The notes under the pieces: model-generated
What the model saw: only the letters and a program-made list of their open reading frames with translations
What the model was told of the DNA's origin: nothing
Databases searched by the model: none
In this document: piece after piece, positions 6,152 through 52,738 of the stretch
How positions within the stretch are numbered: the stretch's first letter is position 1
Layout: each line of letters opens with the position of its first letter
Assembly: GCA_033763895.1 (NCBI GenBank)
Contig: JANRJQ010000007.1
Coordinates: 448,178 to 512,177 of the forward strand
Length of the DNA: 64,000 nucleotides
Reading direction: 5' to 3'
Origin: Chloroherpetonaceae bacterium
Lineage (GTDB): Bacteria; Bacteroidota; Chlorobiia; Chlorobiales; Thermochlorobacteraceae
Program-made: the position numbers and the translations under genes

Positions 6152-8680
6152 CTACGAAGAAGAACCAAAAGGAATTTGAGCTCGAAGAACAAAATTGCGT
6201 CCGGGGTTATCGATATAGTAGCGGAAGCGGCTTAAGTATTCACGATATCGTTGATTCGTTAAATTTTGAACTGAGAGCGAAAGGGTGAAAAAATTCTTAC
6301 CATCGAATTTGATTTTTGTTCCCATTTCAAAATTCAAGAGGGCATAACCTGCGGGAGATTCCGTCAGTCGAATCATTAACTCGCGGTAATCCGCTTCAGA
6401 GAGTGAACTCTGCGTGATGTTTTCTTGAGAGATAAGCGGTGCAGGAATTCGATTCTGTCGTCTTACCCCTTCAATACCCAATTGAATGAAATTCTCGCTT
6501 AGCCCCCAAACATCTGGCAAGTCAAAATGCAGAGAAACGGATGCCCTATCGGAGGGTATTAAGATGAGCGGTTCATTTCGGGTTAAATTATCGCCTCGAA
6601 CAATCGCAACCTTTGATTCTAAACTTGCCCAAGTGTTCAGCTGTGCTCGTAAAGAAAACTCAGCGCCATAAATGGCTGCGTCAGATTGGGAATACGCCGT
6701 TGCCGGAAATGCACCACGAAGAGTTAGAACAATTCCTGTGGGTTCTTGAAAGATGAAATTTGAAAACCGATTGTAATAGGTTGATATTTCGATTTTCACG
6801 TCCGATGATTCGATTTCCGCTCCAAATTCAATCGAATTCGATTGCTCTACCAAGAGCGTTGGATTTCCACGCTCGTAAATTGCAGTTCCGTGATGAACCC
6901 CATCGCTATAAAGTTCATTGATAGAAGGTGGTCTCCAAGCGGAAGCAATATTTCCTGATAAATAAAAAGACTCCCAAACTTTCTGTTTATAACCAAGGCT
7001 AAATGTCGCAGCTTGAAAATCTCTTGTGACATCGGTTGAAATTCGTGAGCTTCGATTAAAAACAGCGGCTTCTTGAATTCTATAATCGAACCTTCCCCCG
7101 AAATTGATAGTACTTGATTCAGAAAGCTGTATTTCTTCTGTCACAAAAAGACCGATGGTGAAACTGATAAAGTCTGGGATTAGCCGTTGGCGTGATTCAC
7201 CTCGAACATTCATTTGAAAAACTGTTGAAACGCCCAATCTTCCGATTGTATTTTTTAGCCAAGAGCCAAAAAAATTTTGGTCGGGTAATTGTGTCAATTT
7301 TGCGTCACTGGTCGCTGTAAAGAGTTGCATTTTCAGAGCAGGAATCGTGCCTGAGATACCGCCGAAGGTAAATGCATCAAATTCTTTTCGGATATTGAGT
7401 TGAGCGCCCGTCGAGAGTTCCCAATTTCCAATTAACGAGGGAATGGAAAATGCAATCGAAGCCCTATCGTGCGATATTTCCTGCCTTGGAGAGATGATAT
7501 CATAAGTAAATGTTGCAGAACTGTCGAAAATGGAACCGCGTTCAATGGCACGCTGTAAGTCGGTTAAGTTCCCGATATGGGCACCGCGGTATATTCCCAA
7601 TTCGGTCATGAAACGGCTGTAATGAAATCGCCAAGCAAGGGTTTGATCATTCGCAATATTTCCAAAAAATACAGCCACATCGGTTTCACGAAATCCGGAG
7701 TTTCGAATAATGTAATCGGGGGTTTCTGAATTGCCGGCTTGCCTGATGCTCGCTTGAAATCGCCAACGCAAATCATCATTTGAGAATCCAAACATCTTAA
7801 AGTCGCCGCTGATTTCTGCTGAAAGTGCGCCTTGTAAGTTATTTGAAAAGGAGTTCACACGAACTTCTCCGCTTAAACCGTGCTGTGTTTCAAATGGCTT
7901 TGGTTCAACCCGAATCACTCCCCCTATCGCGTCTGCCCCATACTCGACGCTTCTGCCTCCTTTGAGTACTTCAATTCGACCGGCAGCAAATGGATCAATT
8001 TCTGGTGCGTGTTCCGCGCCCCACTGCTGTCCCTCTTGCCGAATCCCATCATTCATAATCACAATCCGCTGACTGTGTAATCCACGAATAACGGGCTTTG
8101 AAATTGATGGACCTGTCTGTAAAATGGTTACTCCTGTAACTTCGGAAATCATTTCGCCAAAGGTCTGCCCTCGATGTCGGTCGAGTTCCTCAAGCTTCAG
8201 TACTTCTGAAGACTGAGTTGATAGGCCGGAGCCAAGAATCCGTTCACTCTGAACTTGCATCTCTTCGTACTGAATGTCGGCCGTTTGAAGCGAAACCCGC
8301 AAATCTGTTTCAGGAATTGATCCGAGGGGCATTACCAACATTTTATAGCCAATTCTTGAAAATCGAAGTTCAAATTGGTGGGGTGAAGGAGATTGAATTG
8401 ATCGAATTGAAATATTAAATCGACCCTTTTCATCAGTTACTGTGGTTGAAAGCGTTGTGGGGTTCGCTTTCTTTTCAACATCCAATAGATAAACCAATAC
8501 TCCTGCAATCGGCTCCTTCGAAATGGATTCAAATACCTGCCCACGAAGACTTCCGGTTAGAGAATCTGTTTTTACTTGCGCAACGATTCGGTTGACATAA
8601 ATACAATCGCAAATGAATTGCATTTGAAAAAAACAGAAAAAAAACAGAAGCCGAAACTTCCAAAATCTTGAAAAAATCAT
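6152..8680 (-). CDS. TonB-dependent outer-membrane receptor, probable metal uptake
   Basis: The 842-residue protein has a hydrophobic export signal and then a carboxypeptidase-regulatory-like beta-sandwich (about residues 42-135), as is common in Bacteroidota receptors. A TonB plug domain follows (about 150-265), containing GQTFGEMISEVTGV, VIRGLHSQRIVIMNDG and RIEVLKGGRSVEYGADAIGGVI. The rest is a 22-strand-type barrel ending in a typical C-terminal strand (PGRNFVLRAQIPF). The plug phrase EHAPEIDPF resembles receptors of the ZnuD type, which import zinc. Neighbours are a MerC-like membrane protein 10 bp upstream and a His-rich lipoprotein 34 bp downstream, all behind a Fur-family-like operator. 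Uptake of a transition metal, probably zinc, is inferred; iron or another ligand remains possible. Confidence 0.9.
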   Translation of the reverse strand: MIFSRFWKFRLLFFFCFFQMQFICDCIYVNRIVAQVKTDSLTGSLRGQVFESISKEPIAGVLVYLLDVEKKANPTTLSTTVTDEKGRFNISIRSIQSPSPHQFELRFSRIGYKMLVMPLGSIPETDLRVSLQTADIQYEEMQVQSERILGSGLSTQSSEVLKLEELDRHRGQTFGEMISEVTGVTILQTGPSISKPVIRGLHSQRIVIMNDGIRQEGQQWGAEHAPEIDPFAAGRIEVLKGGRSVEYGADAIGGVIRVEPKPFETQHGLSGEVRVNSFSNNLQGALSAEISGDFKMFGFSNDDLRWRFQASIRQAGNSETPDYIIRNSGFRETDVAVFFGNIANDQTLAWRFHYSRFMTELGIYRGAHIGNLTDLQRAIERGSIFDSSATFTYDIISPRQEISHDRASIAFSIPSLIGNWELSTGAQLNIRKEFDAFTFGGISGTIPALKMQLFTATSDAKLTQLPDQNFFGSWLKNTIGRLGVSTVFQMNVRGESRQRLIPDFISFTIGLFVTEEIQLSESSTINFGGRFDYRIQEAAVFNRSSRISTDVTRDFQAATFSLGYKQKVWESFYLSGNIASAWRPPSINELYSDGVHHGTAIYERGNPTLLVEQSNSIEFGAEIESSDVKIEISTYYNRFSNFIFQEPTGIVLTLRGAFPATAYSQSDAAIYGAEFSLRAQLNTWASLESKVAIVRGDNLTRNEPLILIPSDRASVSLHFDLPDVWGLSENFIQLGIEGVRRQNRIPAPLISQENITQSSLSEADYRELMIRLTESPAGYALLNFEMGTKIKFDGKNFFTLSLSVQNLTNQRYREYLSRFRYYIDNPGRNFVLRAQIPFGSSS

Positions 8681-8690
8681 ATTACTTTAA

Positions 8691-9098
8691 TCAACTCCCA
8701 ACGGGGCACGATTTTGTCAATTTAAAATTAATCATGTGCGAAGACGCAACAATAATGGCACCAATCGGGGTTACAATACTTTCAAACTCATCAAAAAAAA
8801 GATGACCGGACGCGATTATTCCAAAACCCAAAACAATCAATAAAATTGGCAAAGCATTTTTATGGTGAAATCGAAAACTATGTGATAGAGAAGAAACACC
8901 AACAATGATTCCAAAACTGATTATTGAGAACTCGATAACCGGATGGGCCAAAACTGAAAAACCTGTTGCTCCTGCAAGAAACAATGGAACAAACAAGCAA
9001 TGAATTGCACAAATCATAGAAGCAGAAAACCCGATTTTGTCAAGGTTTAATCCTAAAAATGAATTTGGATGATGCGGCCTTTCTTCGCCTTGATTCAT
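8691..9098 (-). CDS. MerC-like membrane protein
   Basis: From the ATG at 9098 this is a 135-residue protein with about four transmembrane helices. Its first helix carries SMICAIHCLFVPLFL, matching the conserved cysteine/histidine motif of the MerC family (known for mercury transport, but often linked to other metals outside mer operons). The N-terminus has the short His-containing stretch EERPHHPN. An upstream ATG at 9161 would add 21 residues, but its start codon lies in a palindromic operator and the added residues look like leader sequence. No merR, merA or merP is present, so mercury resistance is unlikely. It is the first gene of the metal operon with the TonB receptor. Confidence 0.75.
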   Translation of the reverse strand: MNQGEERPHHPNSFLGLNLDKIGFSASMICAIHCLFVPLFLAGATGFSVLAHPVIEFSIISFGIIVGVSSLSHSFRFHHKNALPILLIVLGFGIIASGHLFFDEFESIVTPIGAIIVASSHMINFKLTKSCPVGS

Positions 9099-9145
9099 AT
9101 TTATCTTCAATGTGATAAAAGTTGAATTATTCAACAAACAAAAAT

Positions 9146-9160
9146 TGCAAATAATTCGCA
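9146..9160. promoter_or_regulatory. candidate Fur-family (Zur/Fur) operator
   Basis: TGCAAATAATTCGCA is a 7-1-7 inverted repeat with the AAT-A-ATT core that characterises Fur, Zur and PerR operators. One pair per arm (A/C) is mismatched. It sits 48 nt upstream of the preferred MerC start, at the head of the MerC-TonB receptor-lipoprotein operon. Repression by a Zur- or Fur-type protein is inferred. Confidence 0.55.
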
Positions 9161-9174
9161 TTTAAATATTTTGC

Positions 9175-10422: not shown

Positions 10423-13008
10423 TTATTCTAAAACCCATCCGCTTAATTTTCTTTCGTATTCAGAAACAAGCCTAACAGCGCGGCTTTTGGAGCGAGACTC
10501 GGCGTTAATATGAAAAATATCCCGCTCTTTATCCGGTAATAGAAGAAGGGAGGTTTCATTATCAAAAATGATCTTTACACCATCAATCAAAATTCGGTAA
10601 TTGCTTGCAGTGTCTTCCATAATTTTACGCATTACCTTTCCCTTTGCATCTTTTGGGCACGAAATGTTTCGCTTTATCATAAAATATTTTTCAGGGTAAC
10701 GCACTGATAAATCACCGATTCTGACCTTTGATTTCGCCATCATTTCCATAATCTTCACGCAAGAAAACATTCCATCAACAGCGAATAAAAACTTCGGAAA
10801 TACAAATCCGCCCTTTGTACCGCCTACAAATGAAATTTCTGGGTCAGACGCAATGGTACGCATTAAATCAAGATGGCTGTCTCCGGTGCGAACTACGGCA
10901 ATACCTCTTTCAGAACAAATGTCATCGATTTCTTGTGAGGCAGTGATAGGTACCGCGATTTTTCTAGTTTCAGGGTTTACATCGATAAATAATCTTGTAA
11001 TGAGGGTTAGTAATCTTTGATGATCTAGAAAATTTCCGCGTTCATCAGCAATATAGACGCGCTCTGCGCCTCCATCAAGCATAAACCCAATATCATAGCC
11101 TAATGACACTACAATTTCAGAAAGTTTATCAGCTGCTTGCAAAAATTCATCGGCGGTACGAGTAAATTTTTTTGGATCTAAAAATGCGTTCATCGAAATA
11201 AGGTCAATCCCTAGCCCCCCGATAATGCTGGGGAAAATCGTTGATGCTGCCCCGTGAGAGTAATCAATCGCCACGCGTAATCTGGCTTTTCGAATCACAT
11301 CCGACTCCACAGAGTTTAAAAAGCTATCGGTGTAACTTTCGATGGCACGCTCAGGGAAATTAAGATTACCGACATTTTCATAGCTTGAGCGTTTGTAATC
11401 TTCCCCAAAGAAATGACGCTCAATTTTCTGTGTTTTGCCGGTAGGAAGATCACGCCCGTCTTTATCAAAGAAGATGATATCGCAAAGGTTTTTATCATAA
11501 GGGGATTTTCGAGTATGAACGCCGCCTAATTCGGTACTGTTTTTAAGGCGATGTCGCGTGATTGGAATCGGTGTCGCTTGAAGGTCATTAACCGTTATTC
11601 CTGATGAAAGCAACCCTGCAATGAGTGCGCGGCTGATCATTCGTGAAACTTTATCGACATCTCGGCTTACGGCAACAGTGCCACCTTCTCCGATAATCGT
11701 GCCAAACGAAGCACCTAACTTTGCTGCAAATTCGGGATTGATTTCAATATTGGCAATGCCAGTTATTCTTGCACCGGTAAAAAGTTCACGAGACCATTTG
11801 GATTCCCACACCAAACTTTGCGTTAAAATTGCTCCGTCTTCAATTTCCTTTTCGGGCCAAATTTTAATGTTTGGTCGTATCACCGCATGATTACCGATTT
11901 TGCATCGCTCGGCGATAAATGTTTGCTCCTCAATTTTTACATCATTGCCGATTTTAACATGATTACAAATCACCGATAAATGGGCATCGACATTTTTCCC
12001 AAATTGGACTTCACTCCACGCAACGACTTTATTGAGGTGCGAGCCATCGCCAATCGTCACGGAATCTCCAACAACAGAATTATGAAGGGTTACACCTTTT
12101 CCGATTTTAGACCCTTTTCCAACATAAACACTTCCCGAAAACTTAACTGTATCGGGGTCATACTTTGCAGTTTTATGAACAAAAATCCCCGCAGCGATTT
12201 TCTCGTAACCCTCGCCGAAATCAAGCCCAACCCGACCGTGCAAACAATCTAAATGCGCTTCTTGATATTCGGGAAGAGTTCCGATATCGCGCCAATACCC
12301 TTCGGCGATGTACCCATAAAGACCCATATTTTCACGAAGCATTCTCGGAAATAAGTCTTTTGAAAAATCATAATCTTCATGAAACGGAATTAAATCGAGA
12401 ACTTCTCTTTCGAGGATATAAATACCGGTATTGATGGTATCGCTGAACACTTCTCCCCAAGTTGGCTTTTCAAGAAATCGTGAAACTTTTCCATCAGGCT
12501 CTGTAATAACCACACCAAATTGAACCGGATTTTTAACACGGGTTAAAATCATTGTGGCTTTTGCGCCGCGTTTTTGATGGAATTCCATCGCTTTTGCAAG
12601 ATTAAAGTCAGTCAGCACATCTCCTGATATCACTATAAACCGTTCATCGATCAGGTCTGCAGCATTGCGTACACTTCCTGCAGTTCCATAATCCGCATCA
12701 GATTGAATGTAATGCATCTTAACCCCAACCTTTTTTCCATCTCCGAAGTAATCGCGAATTGCATCAGGCTGATAAAAAAGCATTGAAGTAATTTCCTTTA
12801 TTCCATACTGCTTTAAGAGATTGACAATGTGATGCATCATTGGTTTCTGCATCATTGGAACAAGAGGCTTGGGAATATTCATCGTAAGCGGTCGAAGCCT
12901 TGTACCAAAACCGCCGGCCATTATCACAGCTTTTTTGATACTGATATCGCTTTTTGTTACATCGGTTTTGGGTTCAGTTTTTAGTGGTTCCGCTTTTAGA
13001 TCTGACAT
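10423..13008 (-). CDS. sugar-1-phosphate nucleotidyltransferase fused to a degenerate phosphomannomutase domain
   Basis: The 861-residue protein has three parts. Residues about 26-260 form a nucleotidyltransferase of the mannose-1-phosphate guanylyltransferase type, with AGGFGTRLRPLT (31-42) and IPKPLVP. Residues about 275-410 form a left-handed beta-helix of hexapeptide repeats. From about 420 to the end runs a phosphohexomutase-like region. In that region the usual phosphoserine loop (TASHNP) reads GGVHTRKSP near residue 498. The metal loop (DGDxDR) reads LDGGAERV near 645. The phosphate-binding RPSNTEP loop is replaced by LLPDKERD. The first part should make an NDP-sugar for glycan synthesis; the mutase part is probably catalytically inactive and regulatory. 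Similar fusions are known in several phyla. It is followed by an MlaD gene. Confidence 0.88.
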   Translation of the reverse strand: MSDLKAEPLKTEPKTDVTKSDISIKKAVIMAGGFGTRLRPLTMNIPKPLVPMMQKPMMHHIVNLLKQYGIKEITSMLFYQPDAIRDYFGDGKKVGVKMHYIQSDADYGTAGSVRNAADLIDERFIVISGDVLTDFNLAKAMEFHQKRGAKATMILTRVKNPVQFGVVITEPDGKVSRFLEKPTWGEVFSDTINTGIYILEREVLDLIPFHEDYDFSKDLFPRMLRENMGLYGYIAEGYWRDIGTLPEYQEAHLDCLHGRVGLDFGEGYEKIAAGIFVHKTAKYDPDTVKFSGSVYVGKGSKIGKGVTLHNSVVGDSVTIGDGSHLNKVVAWSEVQFGKNVDAHLSVICNHVKIGNDVKIEEQTFIAERCKIGNHAVIRPNIKIWPEKEIEDGAILTQSLVWESKWSRELFTGARITGIANIEINPEFAAKLGASFGTIIGEGGTVAVSRDVDKVSRMISRALIAGLLSSGITVNDLQATPIPITRHRLKNSTELGGVHTRKSPYDKNLCDIIFFDKDGRDLPTGKTQKIERHFFGEDYKRSSYENVGNLNFPERAIESYTDSFLNSVESDVIRKARLRVAIDYSHGAASTIFPSIIGGLGIDLISMNAFLDPKKFTRTADEFLQAADKLSEIVVSLGYDIGFMLDGGAERVYIADERGNFLDHQRLLTLITRLFIDVNPETRKIAVPITASQEIDDICSERGIAVVRTGDSHLDLMRTIASDPEISFVGGTKGGFVFPKFLFAVDGMFSCVKIMEMMAKSKVRIGDLSVRYPEKYFMIKRNISCPKDAKGKVMRKIMEDTASNYRILIDGVKIIFDNETSLLLLPDKERDIFHINAESRSKSRAVRLVSEYERKLSGWVLE

Positions 13009-40449: not shown

Positions 40450-43400
40450 TTATTTGATTAACATCATTTTCTTTACTGCATTGAAATCTCCACTTCTCAA
40501 GCGATAGAAGTAAACACCCGATGAAAGATTCAACCCATTAAATGAGTAACGATGTGCGCCTGCCTGCAGGTTTCCATCCACTAAAATTCCAACTTTTTGA
40601 CCCAGAACATTATAAACTTCAAGCGTTGTTCTCCCTGCTTGTTTCAATGAAAATTCTATGGTTGTCGCTGGATTAAATGGATTTGGATAATTTTGCGAAA
40701 GCGTGTATTCATCCGGCATTCTTACTGACACCACTTGGTGTTCAGTTACAACACCACCAAATGAAACATCAATTAACTTGTAGTAATAAGTTCTGCCTGC
40801 TTGCAATCTTGAATTGTCAATAAAACTGTATTCTTTACCTGTAGAATTTGTCCCTAATCCCTTGAGCGATTCAATGGTTCTGTAAGAAGCGATTTCTTCA
40901 AACCCGTCATTTTGATTTTCGGAACGCTTAACTATGAAACCTAAATTTTCAAATTCAGATCTTGTTCTCCATTGTATTGTAGTTGTTCTACCTTCAGTTG
41001 GTACCACCTTAAATTCTGCTAGTTCAACCGGCAATGGGTTATCCGCAGGATTAACAGTGCCTAATGCAAATGCATCTGTCTGTGTGAAAGTCACTGAACT
41101 TGTAATGGTTCCAGATGACTCATCACCTGTTTGTCCGCCGTCACCAAGGTTTTCCCAAGCTGAACTGGCAATATCTAAACTTGCCGCTCTTAAACTGTTT
41201 CTTTCGGTAGCAAATATTCCCCCAGCCGAAACAAAGTCATCAGCGTTCCAACTTAGCGTTACAGAACCGTTATTGTAGGTTCCTCCACCACTATTTGATA
41301 CAGCAAAATATCTCATAGACGAAACTTTGGATAAAGTTCCTAATGAGTAGGCAGGTGAACCCGCAGGAGCATTTGTATTCACTTGTCGTAGAGTGAATGA
41401 ATTTGAACCAGATACATGAGAAACGGTTAATTCAACCGGCAAATAGGATACGGCGAAGTTAAACCCATTCCAAGTATTTGCACGATGACCTGAAGGAAAT
41501 CTTCTTGTAACGCTCGGATTATTTGGATAATCAATTCGAACATTCCCTTCGACAAATGATGTTGTACTTCCGCCTATAATTGGTGTTCCGCTCGCGCCGT
41601 CACCATTGTCAGTATCGGTTAATCGAAGTGTCGCAGATGGTATGACAATAACGCCATTTGTAAGGTTCAAAGAGTTTGAAACAATCTGGTTGCTGTTTAT
41701 TGTCAAGTCTCCTGTAGTTTTATCCACAGTTAAATCATAGAAAGAGGTGACTTGGGAACCACTTATGGCTTGATTTACAGATGTACCAGAGAAAGTAACA
41801 TTAGAAGATCCTGAAGTAAAAGTGCCATTATTTACCCAACTTTCTGAAAGGGTAATTGAAGATATGTTCGAAGCATCGAAAGTACCGCTTGCACCTATTG
41901 TAACTGAATCCAAGTCAACTAAAGTCGCTGATTCACCTGCAAATAAAGTACCACTTGCAACATTGAGATCACCAACAATATTAGCATTTGAAGTGAACTC
42001 AACGGAATTTGTTGAACCTTGAATTGTCAAATTATTGAAGTTAAAATCAGGGGAAATTGCTGATCCAGAAATGACCTGTGAACCATTACCGTTAAATGTA
42101 TAGGTCCCTGTACCGGCATTGATATTACCATCATTAGTCAAGTTACCAGAAATTGCGATTCCATAAACCCCAGAATTTAATGTTCCAGCCGTAATAGTTA
42201 AATCATCAGTAACAGAAATTGAATCATTCAGAGTTAAGCTTTGACCTGCTTTATCAACATTTAATGCTCTAAATTGAGTGACACCCGTAATCGTTTGTTC
42301 ACCTGAAGTGCTGGTAAAAGTTACTGAGTGACCTGATGTAGAAGTTAAAACATTCGCTGCTGCATCATTTCTCCAATTTCCTCCCGATAAAGTTATTGTA
42401 TTTGCCCCAATATTAACAGGACCGGATGCACTTTGGATTCTAAAGTTACCACTAAGTGTAAGTGGTGCATTTATATTCTTTGTTGTTCCACCGTCTAAAG
42501 TCAAATTGTGGAAGTTTAAGGTGCCCCCTAAATTTTGTGTACCAACAGTTGCAGAAAACTCAACCAAACCAGCACGAGGTTCAAATGTGCCGTTATTTGT
42601 GTAATCGTCAAATATTTGAATCGAATAATTACCTGAATTGTTCGCATCAAGTGTTGTTAAACTTGCGATTTCAAAATCCGTCACAACAATATTCGAAGAC
42701 AATGTTTTAGTTCCGCCACCAGAGATAGTAACATCATTGTATGTGGTAGGTGTTGCGGGCAAATTATAGCTTGCCGTTGATGAGTAGTCCACTAAACCAC
42801 CGTTCGTAATATCAAAGAAAGTTGTTCCTGAAATTGTATAATTCGGGAAAGTACCTCTTAGTCTTAAAGTTCCATCGCCTGTGAGAGTCCCAAATGTATG
42901 ACCTGTTGTGTTATTGGTGGAAATATCAACAACTCCACTTCCAACAATTGAAAGTGACGCTGCACTTTGACCATTTGAATTCGTCGTTATTGTATGACCA
43001 GTCAAAACAGTCACATCAGTTACGCTTGTCGGAAATGTTCCCGCAGGTCCACCAGTTCCATCAAATGAAACCGTCCAAGAATTGACATCATCCCAATTTC
43101 CTCCTAAAGTTGCATTTCTGCTGTAAAGTGGTGGGGAGAATGCAGCCAATTCTCCGACAATCCACTCATAATTGATTCCAGTTGAAAATGCTACATTCGC
43201 TGTGTGACCTGCAATATCGCTTGCTGTATTGATTGTTGGTGAAGTTGGAGTTTGCCAGATTGCTCCATCGTAATAACGAACAACATAGTTTACTTCAGTA
43301 CCGTTAACTAAGCTATTACTATAAGTAAAGGTGTTTGTTGAATTAATGCTACCTGTACCTAAAACTTCGGTTTCAAAACTTTGTCCTAGTGCGCGCGATG

Positions 43401-46400
43401 TTATAAAGGCATTTGTGTATGAATTGTTTGGAGAAACAATTCTCACTGCAAATCCAGTAGGTGCGCCACTTGCAATTGACGCAGTTGTAACCGTATATGG
43501 ATTGTAATCTCCGCTAATACCAATTGGAAAGGTAAATGATAACTGGGCAGGAGTTGTACCGGTTCTTACAACTCTTGAGCCTGTTTCAGTTCCATCCATT
43601 AATATTTTTCTTGAAGAAGAAAATGGACCAGATGTCAATGCTGACGGTCCAAATGTGAAATTATTAGTTGTTCCGTTTAAGCGAACAAGACCGTTTGCAT
43701 TCATTGTAAAAGTATTGTTCACCGTTACAGGTGTTAAAATATCTAAGTTAAGTCCGGTTGCTTTTGTTATTGTTAGATTTGAGAATGTTACAGGATTATT
43801 TCCTCTTATTGTTTGATCAAGAGTAGAAGAAACAAAAGCTGTTGTCCCTGTAGCTGATGTAAATGTTCCGTTATTGACAAGATTTCCTTGCAAACGAAGT
43901 GTTCTTCCATTTACATCAAATGTTGAACCTAAAGCGATATTCAATGTATCTACATTGAGTATCATACTTGCTGTATTCAGTCGAACAATTCCAGTTCCTG
44001 TTAGATTTACATTTCGTAGTCTTAATTCATTAGTAACATTTGCTTTTGAGATCAACTGAATCCCTAATCCATTAAAGGTTACTGTTGAAGTACCAATTTG
44101 AACAAAACTTGTATCTCCAGCTGCTGTTCCATTTAAGGTTAAATTTCCGCCAATTGTAAGATTGTTGTTTTGAGTAAGCAATCTCGTATCAGCTTCTAAA
44201 GTGAGATTTCCTCGAACAACTGTTTCACCAATCATTCTCTTATTAATTGGTTGGGTATTCGTTGCTTGTCTAGATAAAACCAAGTTGCTGTAACCTCCAC
44301 CATTAGAAGAGTTTAGAGGTGCAATGTCTTGATTGGTTGTAGCGGTCGGGAAATTATACGTAACTGTTGAACCATCTTGAATGGAATAGGTTGCAAAGTT
44401 TCTTGGATAATTTCCGCTACCAGAAATGACAAGATTACCTGTTGAACCAAGGGTAAATGTTCCCCCCGAACCAGAGCGGTCAAATGCACTTGAAGTTTGC
44501 GCAATAGTAAGGGTTCCTGAAGCTACTGTTAAATTTCCAATTACACTTAAAATAGATCCATTAACAGTTTTATTTGATGTTCCTGAAATTTGAACATTAT
44601 TATAGGTTAAAGGTGAAGACGGAAGTGTATAATCTGTAGAACCACTGAATTCGACTGTTCCTCCTCCGCTTGCCAAAAATGAAGATTGGAGTTGTGGAAG
44701 AACATTGCTTTCAATTCTTAGTGTTCCAGTTCCAGAAATGCCTAGTCCAAAAGTTTGGGCTGATGCTGATGTAATGTTTAGTACACTACCTATTCTGATT
44801 TCAACAGAGGCAGCGGTTTTTACACCAGTAGAGATGTTCATTGTATGACCATCTCTAATAACAACAGGATTGGTTGATGTCGGTTCTGTATCAGATCCTA
44901 CATAGACAAATGATGTTGAGTCTGCTGACCAAGGACTTGTCGCCGGATCGTTCGTAGCAGCATCCCAAGATACAGAACCTCCAGACAAACCATTTCTCCA
45001 AGAGTAGAATATCACAGGATCAACAAATCCAGTACCTGCTGTAAAGAAATAATTTGTAAAGTTTCCTGTAGTGTTAAGTGTAAAGAAATTTGATCCTGAG
45101 TTTATTGTTCCTGTTGATGTTGTCCAAGTAAATCCATTGAAGATTCCTGTTTCATAAGATCCATCACCACCAACAGTAGGAACGTCTGTTTCCACCGCTA
45201 CATCAACATAATTGTAAGTATGTGATAAAATCACCCCGGCACCAAAACCTTCAACGGTAGTCTTCCAATTGTAATTTAATGAGGTTGAAGAAGCTGATGG
45301 ATATCTAGAGTTTGTAGGAGCAATTTGAACAGTACCTGCACCGTCCGCGGTTGTAACCGAGATACTAACTGGACGATAATAAGTGGCATCTGTAGAAAAT
45401 GGAAAAATGAAAGGAACAGTAACTGAATTCGGGAAAGCCCATCTTACTCCGGCAGAAGATGAACTTCCTGATGTTCGGACTGAACGTGATGCTGAAAAAA
45501 CTCCTCCTGTAATTGCAGTTGCTGAAGGATTATTAATTGACAGAAGGTTATCACCAATATTTAATAAACCATTCGTTAAGACCAATTGGTTATTTACAGC
45601 TAAATTACCTGTTGTAGAAACACTGGTAAATGTTGGTGATAATCTATTAATCGTTAAGTTATGGAAAGTCGCATTACCTAGTATTGATTGAGCAAAATCA
45701 TCTAAAACCCCAGCATCTGAATAAAACGTAACGTTAGCGTTTGAGAAATTGGCGTTGAAAGACCCTGAAGCAACATTTAATGTCCTTGTTACTGTTAAAC
45801 CACTGTTTGCTGCCAATTGAACACCTCCAGAGGTATTGAAAATTCTTAACCGTCTAACTACTAGGTTAGAGGCCGTAATTACTTGAGGATTAGTTTGTCC
45901 GGAAAGACCACTACCATTCATTTGAATTTGAGATCCACCAGTTGCGTCTGGCGCAAAACCTGACCGTATATAGCCGTTAAGAACAGTTAAGTTTCCACCA
46001 ACGACAAGTTCTGATAGAATATTTGTTGTTGAATCCGTTGCAAAATCTACCCGATTTAATCGAAATTGACCAGATAAATTTACGGTTAGATCATTAAGAA
46101 CAGTAAGTGTACCAGCGCCGTTGACATTTCCAATATTTCCAGTAAAATCTGTTCCATATCCAATAAAAAGATTCCAAAAAGGGACTGTTGAAGTTATTGC
46201 TACGTTGTCATTTCTTCCATTTACATTCATTGCAGAAGTTCCAATTCGTACATTTCCTCCCGTAACATTAAAAGTTGGTGAGGCACTAATACGAATAGCA
46301 GTATATGGAGAAGTCGCAGAGACTGTATGACTTCCTACAACTTCAAGATCTCCGCCACTCATATTAAATTGACTTGCTGAGCTATTCATTGTAAATGCAG

Positions 46401-49400
46401 CAACCGTACCCACAGAAGTATTATCCGTTGATTGTCTTCCTCTTTGAACCCTTACGATACCTCCGGATTGAGTATAGTTCAATGCTGCTCCAGTACCGGG
46501 TTGTATATTAGAAACAACATTTAAAGTACCATTAATCACAGTAAGAGAACTTCCTGTTCCCTCGTATGTTATTGAATTTTCTGATATACCGCTAAAATCA
46601 GTACCGACGTTTACCGTTCCAGATTCGATTCTTAAAGCTCCTCTTAAAATAAGCCCAGTACTAAATCCTGTTGCCCCAACATTCACGGTAGCATTAGCAT
46701 TTTCTACAGTTAATTGACCAGTTGTCGGTATCGTATAGTTCTCGTTGTCCGTGGATAAGTTAAGTGTGATACTTCCAGTTCCTCCGATTCTTAGATTTCC
46801 ATTAACAATTTCAATTGCCTTAACTGGCCCTGTGGTTGGACCATCGATTGAAAAATTTGTCGCGGTAACAAGAATTGACGGGGACTGAGATGTTCCTTTA
46901 TTAACAATAAAACGATTGAAACTATAGGAACCAGAACCAGAGATAACACCATTGCTCGTGCTTGTAAATGTTACATTACAAACTTGACTTCCATTAATGA
47001 AGTCTAAAGTACCTGAATTTTGAATGCTTCCTGAAATTGATAAAGTATTTGATAATACCGAAACTCCAGCCAAATTAAATGTTCCGTTGTTATTAATCGA
47101 GGCGGCAGTAATTGCTCGAGGTGTAGAACCACCATTAAAACTTAAAGTAGATCCTACACCTGTTGAAATTTCTCCACCAACTGTAATATTCCCAGAAGTA
47201 GCATTGCTGAAGAGCAATGTTGTTGTTCCGCTGACTTCAAGATTTCCTGAGAGAGTTAGGTTTGCGTCTGGTAAAGTTTTGGTACCACCTCCACTTGCTG
47301 CTAAAGTGTTATAAGTTGTCGGTGTTGAAGGGATAGTATATATTCCAGTACCACCGTATTCAATTCTGCCACCACTCGAACTTAAAAATGTGGTATAAGT
47401 TCCACCCGGGAATGCTGGTGGTGTTGAAGTGTTAGATTGTAACCTTAAGGTTCCTGTACCTGAAACGACACCAAAAGAATGACCTGTTGTGGCATTTGCA
47501 AGGGCGAGTGTTCCGCCTGATTGAATTTCTAAAGATGCAGATCTTAAGTTGCTAATGTTTGCCGTGACTACATTTGTACCACCGATAAAGACTGGCCTCC
47601 TAGAATTTGGCGTCGTACCGGCAACAGGTCCTCCGATACCAGTCGTAGACCAAGTGTTAGGATCAGTCCAATTTCCTGAAGCACGGCTGTAGTAAGTTAG
47701 AACCGCGCCGAAAGATGATGGCTCACCTGCAGTAAAATCGCCCGTGAGGTAATTAACTGAATTAAATACGATGGTTGAGTCTGATTCGTTAACCTGAGAA
47801 ACATCATTTATTCTTGACCAAACTACTGGAGAATATCTTGCCGGAATAAACGCTGTTTCAGCACCATTAATGATATCTGTTTTTCTGTATTGAAATGAAA
47901 GAGTAGAAACTGGTGAAGATAGTCCTGAATCTGATAAAGACCAATAATAAGAAAGTGCCAAAGAATCCGATGTCAGTGGATTTATTTCATTAACTCCCTT
48001 TACAGTCAAGGCTCCAAGCGTTGCACTAGCGGTAATGTTAACGGTTACAGGTGTATATTTATTGCTTACACCGATAGGATAGGTAAAGGATGCTGGAACA
48101 GACGCCCAAATTTTTCTTACTCCAACCGCCGACGGCGTTCCGTCAGTTTGAATCATTCTTAAGAAAGTTGAAGTTGCTGTTGCATTGGATACAGTAGCGG
48201 TACCGCCTAAAGTAAGTCTGGCAGTTCCAACTAAATTAAGAATTCGATTTTGTGATGTATTTTCAAATGTCAAGACCCCGTTGATGGTAAAATCTTGATT
48301 TGCATTTACAGTTACGGACGATGCTGGCCCATTGATTGACAGATTTGTAAAAGAACCCGTTCCGGTTAATTCGTGAGTTGTACTATTGACTAATTGAACA
48401 ACCCCAGTTCCGATTTGCGAGCCGTTGTTTACAGCATTTCCAGAAATTAGGAGAGAAAATGCACTTAAATCTAAAGTAGAACCCGAGGAAACAATTAAAC
48501 TATCAATTGTATAACTTGAAGCTAATGACAAGCTTTGACCACTTGACATTTCAACAATTAAATCTTTAGTTCCAACACCAGACCATTCAGTGGCTGTTGT
48601 TGTTTTAGAATTACCGGTATATCTGATTCTATAGTTCGTAATATTATCAATACTCCCTGTTAAAGAACCTGCAGAGCGGGACAAAGTCGAACCGTTAGAA
48701 AGTCTCAAATTCGACCCTGCCGAAAGGGTACTTGAATTAAGGAAAAGGGTATCGGTGACTTCATTAAGTGCGCTTAAGGTTTTTGTGCCGGTAGTTCCAC
48801 TTATAACCAAATTTGAAAAACTAGGGGGGGTAGTTGCATTTCTTGACCCTACAAGTTGATTTCCGTTTCCAGCATATTCAAAGTAACTTCCGGGAGAAAG
48901 TGTATAAGAGGCAAATGATAACGAGTCGCCGGGGAAATAATTGAAATTATTTGTATTTGTAACTATAAATCGTGAAGAAGACCCTAATGTAAAATTAAAA
49001 GTACCTGCACTTGACGGATTAAACCGATTTGAATTTGCTCTAAATTCACCCGCCGTTACTAACAAGTTTCCAACAACATATGATCTATTATTTGATAAAA
49101 TCGGCGCATTGGTTCTGTTTCCTCTGCTTATCCAATCTACAAAGCGATTAACCCCGGATGGATTGTTTACAACAACATTGCCTAAAACATTTGAAGCATC
49201 AACAAAGACTTGATAACCTTCTGAAGACCCTGAAGCAGAAGCGACGCCATTCCCAAATCTTAACTCTGTTCCGCTCAATACTGTCGGTTGAGCCCAACGA
49301 AAGCCAATGCTGTCGAGTGGAGGACCACTGAGTGCGGCATTTGTTGAGTCAAGAGGAGAATTTGCAAAAATTGAAACCGCGTATCCTGAACCCGAAAAAG

Positions 49401-52320
49401 CTGGTGGATTAATCAATGTTATCGTACCGCCTGTAAGATTGACTATACCTCGCTGTAATTGCAATACACTAAAAGAACCGGGGATATTTTGGTCAGTGTT
49501 GGGATTAATATTAAAACTTCCACCACTCATTTCAAAGGTTGCCTTTGCATCATTCAAAACGAACCTTCCATTAAGGTTGAATGTCCCCTGAAGCAATTGA
49601 AACAATTGACGCTGATCTGAAGATGTGCTTTTAAATTCCGGATCATTATTTCCATTACCTAAAGTAATTGTTGAGTTACCATCGCCTACATTGACAACAG
49701 CAGTTGCTCCATTTAGAATAAAATTGCTTCCCCCAACACCCGGATTAGCAGGAAAAGTAATATTATTTGTTCCATTGCTTAGCGCATTACCAATGTTTAG
49801 TGTCCCACCTGTAATATTAACGGTTGCGCCGATTCCGCCAAAAATATTCAATGATGCCCTAACATTGACGGTTCCTGATGCTAAAGAGAATTGCGCTCCA
49901 CCTTGTAAGCTAAGATTTCCTCGGTTTCCTCCTCCGATATTAAGCGTTCCTCCGTCAACATTAAGTGAACCCAGCGTTTCAATTTCTAAGAAGCTTCGCG
50001 ATGTTGGCGCAGGAAGTTCAGAAAGCGTATTCACACCGATGTTAAGGAAAGACCCTGAATTAAAATTCGCGACACCTGAAACGGTCGCCGCTGAAACCCC
50101 ACCCCCAAATAGGACATTTGCCATATTTGAATTTCCGAGAATTTCAAGGGTAGAGTTTGTTACATCTATCCCCCCAACCCCATTTATCCCAAAAACGACA
50201 AGATTGACGCTATTTACAGATGTCACGTTTTCATACATTCTCAAAGTAGAATTGGCAGATAAATTCACTTGAGAATTTCCCAAATTAGAATTTTGGGCAC
50301 CAGCAGAAATAAAAGAAGGATTTTGGGATACAACGATTAGTGAATTTGATACATTATAAGTCGTAGTGGCCGCTAGATCAGACGCTATTCCCAACCATCT
50401 ACCGTAAATACGGACAGTTGAATTGGTAACATTCATCGTTCTCGTAAAGGCGTTGTTTTGGTCAGCCGTTAAATTCCCTGTACTATCAGACGCATTTCCT
50501 ACCAATAGGGTACTGTTGGTAACATTAACTGTAGTATTTCCTCTAAAGAAAAAAGCTGATCCTGCAACAGTCAAATTACGACCAGTTCTAAAAGTAGCAC
50601 CTGATAAAACATTTAATGTGCAACCTCCACCAGCTGTTGTTCCGCTTAGAAAATATTCAGAGATATTAATTTCTGACCCTGAACCAGTGACTGTTATAAC
50701 TCCCGATCCCGGTGTATCTTGATCACAAACAAATCTTCCAAACCCGAGCGTAGGATGACCAATATTTAAAACTCCTCCACCTGAGACTGTGAGGGTTGAG
50801 GTACCTCTTAAATAAAAAGCAGAAAAAACTGCACTAAGATTCTGTGCGATATTAACAACTGCACCATTTGTAATGTTAATGTTTGTACCATTGCCGGCAG
50901 CAGTTCCTGATATAAGATATTCCGAAATGGTTAGAGTTGACCCTGCGCCGTCAACATTTAGTGTTGCTGTAATCGGAGTATCGGCATCAGCGACCAAACG
51001 CCCAAAAACACCTGTAGAACTCCCAACTTCAACATCTCCGCCAGTATTAATATTCAGCGCGGAACCGCCTCTTAAATAAAGTAAATCAGCAACAGCTGTT
51101 CTCGAAGGCCCCACTCTTAATAAACCTGAGTTGGTCACGTTTGTCGTCGCAGCGATACTTCCTCCTGTTCCGGAAACATATCTACCAGATTGAATAAGGG
51201 AAGAAGTTCCATTGACTGTAACCGTACCTCCTGCATCCAATCGAATATCTCCAAAAACACCATTTCCAACTAACAATTGACCACCATTTTGAACTGTAAT
51301 CACTGAACTTGTGACGCCGGTAAGAAGCTTCGACTGATTTGCGGTTGTATTATTTTGCCCAACTCGCACAATCGCCGAAGAACCATCAATAGTAAGTGAT
51401 GCACCATTAAGAGTTAAGTTAATGGCATTATCACCGGGCGCAAAATTCATTTCACCTTGAAGAACCACAATTGACCGGTTAACCCCTAAAGTAATTGAAC
51501 CTGCGCTATTGTAATTATAAACAGCACTATTATTGTGGCGATACTCACCAAGTGTAAAAGTTGTTCGATCGAAAGGAATTGCTGTGGTAAACGCGGTCGA
51601 ATTATTGATGATTCTATTATTGGGCGATGTTCCCGTGTTATTAAAAGTAATAGTCCCGGCTGTTGTTCCCCCAATAGTAACAGTCCCACCAAGTGAAATG
51701 GTTTGGTTTAGAGCTCCATTAAAAGTTATGTTATTAAAACTTGAAATGCCGCTTCCAGCTAAATCTCCTCTTAAAACTAAATTAACGACATCAAAATTAA
51801 CTCCGTCAGCATTTCTTAGGGTTAAAGTACCGTTATTTGTCAAGTTTCCAGAAGTCAAAGTATGAGTGTCAGCCCCACCATCAGGGGTTGTATTGCTTGA
51901 AAAAATAGTACCTCCGATAGAAACAGTGGTTGCACCTGTAACGGTAATTGCCCTTCCGCTTGTATTATCAAAGCGCAATTCCCCTGAAACTCCTTCACCG
52001 ACTTGAAAAGATCCTAATGGTTGAGCTGGAGAAACATTTAGTGTTACAATATGACCATCACGAATCGTCACTAAACCCGTACCAGCATTTTGACCCGGGT
52101 AACCTTCTGCCGGATTTGACACCCAAATCGTTCCGTTGTAGCGTTCCCAACTTGCCGTTGTTGTCCAAGTAAAAGAAGCCGCATTGGTGCGATAATCCCC
52201 TATTGCCTGTGCCAAAAGATCACCTATCATTACTGTATTTGCAAGTACCAGCAAAGAGAAGGTTAAGAAAAATGAAAAAATACTCCCAGCAGTAAAGAAA
52301 CGAGGAAAGCGAGAATTCAT
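40450..52320 (-). CDS. giant modular T9SS-exported surface protein
   Basis: From the ATG at 52320 the protein is 3956 residues. It starts with a signal peptide (FPRFFTAGSIFSFFLTFSLL, ending near LLAQA); an ATG 31 codons earlier would bury that signal. It ends in a T9SS type A sorting domain of about 85 residues (QNYPNPFNPATTIEF, VYNVLGQKV, SSGVYFYRLRSGD). Between lie Gly/Ser/Thr/Asn-rich beta-solenoid-like repeats in four modules, opening near residues 40, 1540, 2440 and 3060. Each opens with a W-rich GNW/sW segment and GHT-type motif, and each ends with an FP(I/S)G or FPF domain. A fibronectin-like segment (SEFENLGFIVKRS) precedes the sorting domain. Few cysteines are present. Adhesion or surface-layer function is inferred. 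The gene is monocistronic, with its own terminator. Confidence 0.9.
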   Translation of the reverse strand: MNSRFPRFFTAGSIFSFFLTFSLLVLANTVMIGDLLAQAIGDYRTNAASFTWTTTASWERYNGTIWVSNPAEGYPGQNAGTGLVTIRDGHIVTLNVSPAQPLGSFQVGEGVSGELRFDNTSGRAITVTGATTVSIGGTIFSSNTTPDGGADTHTLTSGNLTNNGTLTLRNADGVNFDVVNLVLRGDLAGSGISSFNNITFNGALNQTISLGGTVTIGGTTAGTITFNNTGTSPNNRIINNSTAFTTAIPFDRTTFTLGEYRHNNSAVYNYNSAGSITLGVNRSIVVLQGEMNFAPGDNAINLTLNGASLTIDGSSAIVRVGQNNTTANQSKLLTGVTSSVITVQNGGQLLVGNGVFGDIRLDAGGTVTVNGTSSLIQSGRYVSGTGGSIAATTNVTNSGLLRVGPSRTAVADLLYLRGGSALNINTGGDVEVGSSTGVFGRLVADADTPITATLNVDGAGSTLTISEYLISGTAAGNGTNINITNGAVVNIAQNLSAVFSAFYLRGTSTLTVSGGGVLNIGHPTLGFGRFVCDQDTPGSGVITVTGSGSEINISEYFLSGTTAGGGCTLNVLSGATFRTGRNLTVAGSAFFFRGNTTVNVTNSTLLVGNASDSTGNLTADQNNAFTRTMNVTNSTVRIYGRWLGIASDLAATTTYNVSNSLIVVSQNPSFISAGAQNSNLGNSQVNLSANSTLRMYENVTSVNSVNLVVFGINGVGGIDVTNSTLEILGNSNMANVLFGGGVSAATVSGVANFNSGSFLNIGVNTLSELPAPTSRSFLEIETLGSLNVDGGTLNIGGGNRGNLSLQGGAQFSLASGTVNVRASLNIFGGIGATVNITGGTLNIGNALSNGTNNITFPANPGVGGSNFILNGATAVVNVGDGNSTITLGNGNNDPEFKSTSSDQRQLFQLLQGTFNLNGRFVLNDAKATFEMSGGSFNINPNTDQNIPGSFSVLQLQRGIVNLTGGTITLINPPAFSGSGYAVSIFANSPLDSTNAALSGPPLDSIGFRWAQPTVLSGTELRFGNGVASASGSSEGYQVFVDASNVLGNVVVNNPSGVNRFVDWISRGNRTNAPILSNNRSYVVGNLLVTAGEFRANSNRFNPSSAGTFNFTLGSSSRFIVTNTNNFNYFPGDSLSFASYTLSPGSYFEYAGNGNQLVGSRNATTPPSFSNLVISGTTGTKTLSALNEVTDTLFLNSSTLSAGSNLRLSNGSTLSRSAGSLTGSIDNITNYRIRYTGNSKTTTATEWSGVGTKDLIVEMSSGQSLSLASSYTIDSLIVSSGSTLDLSAFSLLISGNAVNNGSQIGTGVVQLVNSTTHELTGTGSFTNLSINGPASSVTVNANQDFTINGVLTFENTSQNRILNLVGTARLTLGGTATVSNATATSTFLRMIQTDGTPSAVGVRKIWASVPASFTYPIGVSNKYTPVTVNITASATLGALTVKGVNEINPLTSDSLALSYYWSLSDSGLSSPVSTLSFQYRKTDIINGAETAFIPARYSPVVWSRINDVSQVNESDSTIVFNSVNYLTGDFTAGEPSSFGAVLTYYSRASGNWTDPNTWSTTGIGGPVAGTTPNSRRPVFIGGTNVVTANISNLRSASLEIQSGGTLALANATTGHSFGVVSGTGTLRLQSNTSTPPAFPGGTYTTFLSSSGGRIEYGGTGIYTIPSTPTTYNTLAASGGGTKTLPDANLTLSGNLEVSGTTTLLFSNATSGNITVGGEISTGVGSTLSFNGGSTPRAITAASINNNGTFNLAGVSVLSNTLSISGSIQNSGTLDFINGSQVCNVTFTSTSNGVISGSGSYSFNRFIVNKGTSQSPSILVTATNFSIDGPTTGPVKAIEIVNGNLRIGGTGSITLNLSTDNENYTIPTTGQLTVENANATVNVGATGFSTGLILRGALRIESGTVNVGTDFSGISENSITYEGTGSSLTVINGTLNVVSNIQPGTGAALNYTQSGGIVRVQRGRQSTDNTSVGTVAAFTMNSSASQFNMSGGDLEVVGSHTVSATSPYTAIRISASPTFNVTGGNVRIGTSAMNVNGRNDNVAITSTVPFWNLFIGYGTDFTGNIGNVNGAGTLTVLNDLTVNLSGQFRLNRVDFATDSTTNILSELVVGGNLTVLNGYIRSGFAPDATGGSQIQMNGSGLSGQTNPQVITASNLVVRRLRIFNTSGGVQLAANSGLTVTRTLNVASGSFNANFSNANVTFYSDAGVLDDFAQSILGNATFHNLTINRLSPTFTSVSTTGNLAVNNQLVLTNGLLNIGDNLLSINNPSATAITGGVFSASRSVRTSGSSSSAGVRWAFPNSVTVPFIFPFSTDATYYRPVSISVTTADGAGTVQIAPTNSRYPSASSTSLNYNWKTTVEGFGAGVILSHTYNYVDVAVETDVPTVGGDGSYETGIFNGFTWTTSTGTINSGSNFFTLNTTGNFTNYFFTAGTGFVDPVIFYSWRNGLSGGSVSWDAATNDPATSPWSADSTSFVYVGSDTEPTSTNPVVIRDGHTMNISTGVKTAASVEIRIGSVLNITSASAQTFGLGISGTGTLRIESNVLPQLQSSFLASGGGTVEFSGSTDYTLPSSPLTYNNVQISGTSNKTVNGSILSVIGNLTVASGTLTIAQTSSAFDRSGSGGTFTLGSTGNLVISGSGNYPRNFATYSIQDGSTVTYNFPTATTNQDIAPLNSSNGGGYSNLVLSRQATNTQPINKRMIGETVVRGNLTLEADTRLLTQNNNLTIGGNLTLNGTAAGDTSFVQIGTSTVTFNGLGIQLISKANVTNELRLRNVNLTGTGIVRLNTASMILNVDTLNIALGSTFDVNGRTLRLQGNLVNNGTFTSATGTTAFVSSTLDQTIRGNNPVTFSNLTITKATGLNLDILTPVTVNNTFTMNANGLVRLNGTTNNFTFGPSALTSGPFSSSRKILMDGTETGSRVVRTGTTPAQLSFTFPIGISGDYNPYTVTTASIASGAPTGFAVRIVSPNNSYTNAFITSRALGQSFETEVLGTGSINSTNTFTYSNSLVNGTEVNYVVRYYDGAIWQTPTSPTINTASDIAGHTANVAFSTGINYEWIVGELAAFSPPLYSRNATLGGNWDDVNSWTVSFDGTGGPAGTFPTSVTDVTVLTGHTITTNSNGQSAASLSIVGSGVVDISTNNTTGHTFGTLTGDGTLRLRGTFPNYTISGTTFFDITNGGLVDYSSTASYNLPATPTTYNDVTISGGGTKTLSSNIVVTDFEIASLTTLDANNSGNYSIQIFDDYTNNGTFEPRAGLVEFSATVGTQNLGGTLNFHNLTLDGGTTKNINAPLTLSGNFRIQSASGPVNIGANTITLSGGNWRNDAAANVLTSTSGHSVTFTSTSGEQTITGVTQFRALNVDKAGQSLTLNDSISVTDDLTITAGTLNSGVYGIAISGNLTNDGNINAGTGTYTFNGNGSQVISGSAISPDFNFNNLTIQGSTNSVEFTSNANIVGDLNVASGTLFAGESATLVDLDSVTIGASGTFDASNISSITLSESWVNNGTFTSGSSNVTFSGTSVNQAISGSQVTSFYDLTVDKTTGDLTINSNQIVSNSLNLTNGVIVIPSATLRLTDTDNGDGASGTPIIGGSTTSFVEGNVRIDYPNNPSVTRRFPSGHRANTWNGFNFAVSYLPVELTVSHVSGSNSFTLRQVNTNAPAGSPAYSLGTLSKVSSMRYFAVSNSGGGTYNNGSVTLSWNADDFVSAGGIFATERNSLRAASLDIASSAWENLGDGGQTGDESSGTITSSVTFTQTDAFALGTVNPADNPLPVELAEFKVVPTEGRTTTIQWRTRSEFENLGFIVKRSENQNDGFEEIASYRTIESLKGLGTNSTGKEYSFIDNSRLQAGRTYYYKLIDVSFGGVVTEHQVVSVRMPDEYTLSQNYPNPFNPATTIEFSLKQAGRTTLEVYNVLGQKVGILVDGNLQAGAHRYSFNGLNLSSGVYFYRLRSGDFNAVKKMMLIK
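50395..51085 (-). repeat. tandem repeats of about 87 codons inside the giant gene
   Basis: Three successive copies can be aligned by eye. They begin LRGGSALNINTGG, LRGTSTLTVSGGG and FRGNTTVNVTNST. The first two also share FGR, DTP, ISEY and SGTTAG/SGTAAG. Copies 1 and 2 are about 260 bp each and copy 3 is partial and diverged. They are coding repeats, not a CRISPR array. Confidence 0.7.
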
Positions 52321-52738
52321 ATCGGAATGATTAGTATTGAAAATAGAAACTTGTTCGACTTGAGCAGCAGAGAAAGGCGTATTTATTTGAGGAACTTGAT
52401 AGCGCTGAACCATATTTTAATTCTAGAATTAAAGGCAAAAAAATTATGTTAAGTGGCTTCTTAGGTGGCTCAGGCGATGAATGATTCATTAACTGAGCAA
52501 ATTTAAGAACTTTCTTAATCAAAAGTGAACCCAAAATCACAAACTGTGACTTGCTATACAACTTTAAGACCTGAACTGAAATGAGATAAATATCCTTAAC
52601 GTGCAGGCTGTTTCAAAGTTATTGACAAATGTGTAAAAAATTGGGTTTGACCTAACTCACTAAAAATACAAAAAAAATAAGGAAAAAAGAAGTTGAGAGA
52701 TAAATTTTCAACTACAGCCTCAGAAACTTAATCCCGAT
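52321..52738. promoter_or_regulatory. leader/intergenic region of the giant gene with an 18-bp palindrome
   Basis: These 418 bp between nnr and the preferred start of the giant gene hold no convincing gene. TTTAATTCTAGAATTAAA at 52416-52433 is a perfect palindrome 96 bp upstream of the start and could be an operator. No clear -7 TAnnTTTG box was identified. If the ATG at 52413 were used instead, the palindrome would touch the start codon. Confidence 0.45.

Follow-up and report, generated by a model that had tools for sequence, protein, structure and literature searches.

The mutase domain of a three-part fusion, in which a nucleotidyltransferase, a left-handed beta-helix (LbH) and a phosphoglucomutase (PGM) half follow one another in one chain, is presumably exactly what the CDD model cd05805 (MPG1_transferase) stands for. 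This subfamily has been placed among those "known to catalyze distinct reactions" (PMC9426568). The fusion architecture itself is already known from SCO1388 of Streptomyces coelicolor, which was called apparently bifunctional on the basis of its domains and whose disruption mutant stayed phage-sensitive; from double mutants, the authors concluded that it probably contributes little to the GDP-mannose pyrophosphorylase activity of S. coelicolor (as described in PMC5982138). Catalytically inactive relatives have been described as well. Human GMPPA and plant KONJAC are inactive relatives that assemble with or upregulate GDP-mannose pyrophosphorylase (PMC9168903), and PGM5 (6y8x), an inactive member of the phosphohexomutase fold, keeps substrate binding and its active site according to the account in PMC7761743. 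In a literature survey conducted mostly outside full texts, we recognised no description of a pseudo-mutase fused to a nucleotidyltransferase, nor of a link between such a protein and EIIA. The database records consulted for the fusion call it just "sugar phosphate nucleotidyltransferase".

We analysed a window of 64,000 nucleotides, the whole stretch of DNA presented above, in which an intact open reading frame on the minus strand (10423..13008) encodes such a fusion of 861 amino acids (aa). Residues 26-255 (12244..12933, minus strand) match the nucleotidyltransferase family PF00483 (NTP_transferase, 1.5e-54), residues 288-380 (11869..12147, minus strand) form the hexapeptide LbH domain (PF25084, PF00132 and model), and residues 409-861 (10426..11784, minus strand) form the mutase half, in which Pfam recognises PGM_PMM domains I, II and III (PF02878, PF02879 and PF02880; residues 409-771). 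An AlphaFold model of the whole protein (64-row alignment, mean pLDDT 87.0, pTM 0.69) adds the fourth mutase domain, so that the predicted four-domain phosphohexomutase fold is complete (residues 404-861); with a pTM of 0.69, how the domains are arranged relative to one another is predicted less reliably than each domain itself. In structural comparisons of the model, the mutase half matched the archaeal phosphoglucomutase 9du5 of Thermococcus (Z 46.0, rmsd 2.4 over 443 residues). For the first half, the matches were VTC1 (7x8k), a GDP-mannose pyrophosphorylase (Z 40.0; rmsd 2.3 across 347 residues), and, with Z scores of 39.0-40.0 for the group, human GMPPB (7d72) and Leishmania GMP (7whs); these enzymes share the nucleotidyltransferase and LbH fold and the catalytic residues, but have no mutase half. 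The domain order is that of SCO1388 and the cd05805-type fusions. A sequence-only reading of this DNA had proposed a nucleotidyltransferase fused to a phosphomannomutase-like domain of overall mutase-like length, and both points are confirmed by the Pfam domains and the model.

The loops of the mutase half were compared with those of the archaeal PMM/PGM proteins 1wqa and 9du5 and of three intact mutases encoded elsewhere in the same genome (L005, L006 and L007). The same reading had held that the phosphoserine, metal-binding and phosphate-binding loops are lacking. For the phosphoserine loop (residues 495-503, GGVHTRKSP; 11500..11526, minus strand), this is true of the motif, as the protein reads RKSPYD where active phosphohexomutases have TASHNP. 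However, G-G-V-H-T-R-K-S pairs without gaps with G-G-x-x-x-T-A-S, which places S502 at the catalytic serine of TASHNP; only the flanking T-A and H-N-P are gone. The metal loop DGD(G/A)D is likewise altered rather than absent, since DGGAER replaces DGDADR (residues 645-650; 11059..11076, minus strand): the first metal aspartate is retained as D645, and G647 and E649 occupy the positions of the second and third. The claim about the phosphate loop needs no correction, as LLPDKERDI (residues 823-831; 10516..10542, minus strand) lies where active enzymes have xRxSGTEPx, with LPDKERD at the position of RxSGTEP. In addition, the sugar-binding loop GGE(E/x)SG is altered (residues 729-736, GGTKGGFV; 10801..10824, minus strand), with GGTKGGF facing GGEESGG and being one residue shorter. 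In the alignment with 1wqa and 9du5, the arginine of domain I corresponds to T416 and the lysine of NG-x-K to I512. The intact mutase L007 also carries variant motifs (SASHNP, DPDVDR, GGEGNGG and RKSNTEP), and its key residues are unchanged.

A search of species genomes yielded 534 candidate loci, the best 80 of which (L027-L106; 44-77% identical to the window protein) were aligned with it to give a set of 81. One member, L091, ends near its C-terminus before the phosphate loop, which leaves 80 sequences in those columns. According to their record titles, the 80 loci come from Chlorobi, Ignavibacteria, Kapabacteria, Kryptonia, Zixibacteria, KSB1, Endomicrobia, Caldisericota and others. The motifs [ST]ASHN, DxDxD(R/K) and RxSxTEP occurred in none of the 81 mutase halves (L091 having no letters at the phosphate loop), nor in any of four more distant fusions, namely three from actinobacteria (33-36% identical to the window protein) and a fourth carried on a plasmid of Sulfuricurvum (37%). 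A looser sugar-loop pattern matched in 2 of 81; the match in L084 is the former serine loop, outside the sugar loop, and that in L046 was not located. Because the replacement motifs recur in relatives, the altered loops are neither a matter of chance nor local. According to the alignments and the model, the predicted phosphohexomutase fold is complete, and its metal, sugar and phosphate loops have been replaced family-wide by other residues that are themselves largely conserved. R500, D582 and E649 are present in all 81, G496 in 80 of 81 and P825 in 80 of 80, and position 650 is K in 60 and R in 21. Judged by its sequence, the mutase half is not a canonical mutase.

The actinobacterial fusions (Nonomuraea, L108; Streptomyces, L109 and L110) resemble the window protein in domain order, length, full-length identity and absence of canonical mutase motifs. 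They differ in that the serine is replaced by T or V and that a guanine-contact residue of the nucleotidyltransferase half is acidic, which it is in none of the 81. SCO1388 is counted with them on the basis of its description in PMC5982138. The Sulfuricurvum fusion (S. kujiense plasmid pSULKU01, L107) is very divergent; R500, invariant in the 81, is N in this protein, and its gene lies between genes for a phospholipase A and a patatin-like phospholipase.

Of 198 genomes sampled in the phylum, 31, belonging to 27 of 102 genera, had a single match with an E value of 1e-150 or lower. Among near relatives, the fusion was found in all 12 genomes of families f1-f3, in one of them (G008) split over two contigs; G006, a bin of 13% contamination, contains an additional, broken copy. 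No full-length match was found in the 49 genomes of family f4 (best E 1.1e-38). Two loci labelled Bradyrhizobiaceae (L063) and Desulfobulbaceae (L071) carry Kapabacteria/Ignavibacteria-like fusions with an EIIA neighbour, and these bins may be mislabelled.

The mutase and nucleotidyltransferase halves are under equally strong selection. In six usable sequence pairs out of seven (the seventh gave no value), dN/dS was 0.013-0.048 for the mutase half, 0.015-0.063 for the nucleotidyltransferase half and 0.028-0.114 for the LbH domain, with synonymous distances of at least 1.6 in four of the six. When the six former active-site loops were pooled, their conservation exceeded that of the rest of the mutase half, and none of 2000 random placements within that half, matched in loop lengths, reached it. 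Taken singly, the sugar (0.002) and serine (0.02) loops passed a threshold of 0.05, the arginine (0.077) and metal (0.091) loops stood out less, and conservation did not exceed the mutase average in the lysine loop (0.318) or the phosphate loop (0.562). This conservation indicates that the rebuilt cleft is maintained, and it does not tell which ligand it holds.

The reading we favour, with some reservation, is that the protein is a nucleotide-sugar pyrophosphorylase whose own chain includes a pseudo-mutase with a regulatory role. The altered mutase half would then probably be a sensor or regulator, not the mutase that it resembles. The suggestion made from the sequence, that it may sense sugar phosphates or serve as a scaffold for the nucleotidyltransferase, is plausible in either form. 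In the pure form of the second idea, the mutase fold would set the shape of an oligomer or tether the nucleotidyltransferase to partners, and the old cleft would be without a ligand. The fold is indeed retained over its full length in the model, and the LbH domain of related enzymes mediates oligomers according to PMC9168903. A scaffold, however, does not need the raised conservation of the pooled former active-site loops, and R500 and E649, which stand where the active site used to be, do not vary among the 81. The conserved, rebuilt cleft fits a binding role better, and we regard a pure scaffold as unlikely.

The individual alignment columns bear on whether the fusion might still be a bifunctional phosphomannomutase/pyrophosphorylase with a divergent mutase site, as was published for SCO1388, which "appears to be a bifunctional enzyme" from its domains (PMC5982138). 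S502 is serine in 71 of 81 members (N in 7, A in 2, T in 1), and position 645 is D in 60 (N in 9, E in 9, Q in 2, G in 1). Since S502 and D645 remain, some phosphoryl chemistry is possible. Yet no member whose sequence covers these positions has the second or third metal aspartate, RxSGTEP or the arginine of domain I: position 647 is G in 70 and Asp in none, position 649 is E in all 81, and position 416 is never Arg. The lysine of NG-x-K (position 512) is present in 6 and replaced in 75. Position 731 is T in 57 and Glu in none, and at position 730, one column before the sugar-loop gap, E occurs in 3 and D in 10. Moreover, the serine is replaced in 10 of 81, and the more distant fusions have T, V and V (actinobacteria) and K (Sulfuricurvum) in its place. 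Of the residues whose preservation would speak for an active mutase, the serine is therefore mostly kept, whereas two of three metal aspartates are not. The loss of the loops argues against a bifunctional reading of the SCO1388 type.

Intact mutases are also encoded in the same cells. Besides the three in the genome of the window, an intact phosphohexomutase gene with all four canonical motifs lies 97-237 bp downstream of the fusion in 4 of the 80 loci (L083, L084, L099 and L104; three Endomicrobia and one labelled Deltaproteobacteria), so that a canonical and an altered mutase are encoded side by side. Together with the loops lost throughout the 81 aligned sequences, these intact genes support the pseudo-mutase first proposed from the sequence, and we consider retained bifunctionality improbable.

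The same columns could point to new chemistry on the mutase fold, with a rebuilt site (H498, R500, S502, E649 and R/K650) acting, for example, as a phosphatase or isomerase. R500 and E649 are invariant, the loops together are well conserved, and dN/dS of the mutase half is as low as that of the nucleotidyltransferase half. However, H498 (68 of 81), S502 and D645 vary, which makes an active site of this kind rather improbable, too. A local accident or decay of the mutase half is ruled out, because the loops are altered across 81 sequences and dN/dS is low. In a phylogenetic tree, the fused mutases formed one clade, with 29 of them on one side of a branch and 7 intact ones on the other (support 100/100), although the tree program warned of long branches for L107 and L007. 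An origin of the family by fusion of adjacent archaeal genes was considered as well; it is unsupported, because in the one case examined (L122) glmM precedes glmU, in the reverse order.

The nucleotidyltransferase half retains what is expected of a working enzyme, both the GGxGTR...KP signature of PF00483 and the catalytic Asp pair. G33, G35, T36, R37, D130, E180, K181, N193 and D241 are kept in 81 of 81 members and K47 in 64 of 64; by alignment, D130, D241, K217 and N193 correspond to D111, D219, K196 and N173 of VTC1, as these residues are given in PMC9168903. The N-terminal domain is thus probably a working sugar-activating enzyme. Its best curated model was mannose-1-phosphate guanylyltransferase (NF052502) in all 8 members scanned, including the window protein, but all 8 scored below the cut-off (253 bits against 440 for the window protein). 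Of the chains with solved structures, tlr0611 (8x7s), annotated as UTP-glucose-1-phosphate uridylyltransferase, scored highest by sequence, ahead of the GDP-mannose enzymes. In VTC1, position 80 contacts guanine N1; the residue is Asp80 in PMC9168903 and Glu in the chain sequence used for the alignment. The corresponding residue is S103 in the window protein and A in 61, P in 15, S in 4 and N in 1 of the 81 members; it is acidic in the three actinobacterial fusions. As this position is never acidic in the 81, the use of GTP is unsure. Given the scores below the NF052502 cut-off, the UDP-glucose-type top match, S103 and the SCO1388 mutants, a GDP-mannose-type product is a first guess by similarity, with neither base nor sugar settled.

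The genomic context of the product was assessed by profile scores. The genome of the window encodes gmd above its cut-off and a separate, stand-alone ManC-like protein that falls below its own cut-off (314 bits against 373). Among 12 genomes with the fusion, gmd exceeded its cut-off in 4 (G000, G009, G010 and G012) and not in the others (G001-G008), so that the case for a connection with the GDP-fucose branch is weaker. GalU was above its cut-off in none of 31 genomes, that of the window included. PF01704 gave no match in the genomes scanned, but as it was silent in the controls as well, its absence carries no information.

The gene neighbourhood points to a possible partner. In 44 of the 80 loci, a PTS_EIIA_2-like gene lies downstream of the fusion on the same strand (e.g., L100:7637-8104 and L051:7572-8039); it starts within 250 bp of the end of the fusion or overlaps it in 40 of these and lies about 2.3 kb further on in 4. 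Five of the 36 loci without this gene end within 600 bp. The PH motif of EIIA is kept in 44 of 44, and the one EIIA member scanned with Pfam matched PF00359. A hisS-like gene is found near the fusion in 24 of 80 loci, often after EIIA. The EIIA gene is not adjacent to the fusion in the window, nor in five Chlorobi loci (L027-L031); the lineage of the window has its own copy elsewhere in the genome, and EIIA is also present in genomes without the fusion.

In the window, the neighbours of the fusion are PAP2, MlaD (16 bp overlap) and MerC genes. This neighbourhood (KsgA, PAP2, MlaD, MerC and a TonB receptor) was found beside the fusion in none of the 80 loci within five ORFs (phmmer, E 1e-3; the ORF list could miss genes masked by long opposite-strand ORFs). 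The MerC-family membrane protein (8691-9161, minus strand) and the TonB-dependent receptor (6152-8680, minus strand) lie side by side and are possibly a metal uptake or resistance pair. Further along the window (40450-52413, minus strand), an ORF of 3987 aa has a C-terminal Por_Secre_tail sorting domain as its sole Pfam match at E 1e-5, and probably encodes a giant, secreted surface protein. In Zixibacteria, ORFs after the fusion resemble, as judged by eye, polysaccharide export and chain-length genes, and several loci have a HAD-type phosphatase-like gene just upstream (L103:4310-4972, L072:3196-3861 and L078:3812-4984; Pfam on L103 only).

From conservation and neighbourhood, regulation through ligand binding is the best-supported role of the mutase half, and we hold this with moderate confidence. 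In such a regulated pyrophosphorylase, the first half would make an NDP-sugar (GDP-mannose-type by similarity), the LbH domain would assemble oligomers, and the true mutases encoded elsewhere in the genome would supply the sugar-1-phosphate. The rebuilt mutase cleft would bind a ligand, be it a sugar phosphate, a nucleotide sugar or another phosphometabolite, and the bound ligand would set the activity of the first half. GMPPA and KONJAC would be analogous in how they work, although their partner is another nucleotidyltransferase-type subunit, and that of the window protein a fused mutase. PGM5 is likewise an inactive mutase fold, but it has no nucleotidyltransferase fusion and keeps the active site that is rebuilt here. 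In Ignavibacteria, Kapabacteria and Kryptonia-type lineages, the adjacently encoded PTS EIIA may be a regulatory partner. A more specific and doubtful version casts the mutase half as a metabolite receptor gating NDP-sugar synthesis; in these lineages, a dedicated EIIA phosphoprotein would read or drive it, and the PEP state of the cell would thereby have direct control over the supply of an envelope sugar nucleotide.

The EIIA neighbour makes the regulatory link directly testable. Should the mutase half prove to be a conserved domain without mutase function, any pathway reconstruction in which the fusion counts as a phosphomannomutase is wrong, and bacteria may have in this family their counterpart of the GMPPA-type control of nucleotide-sugar synthesis.
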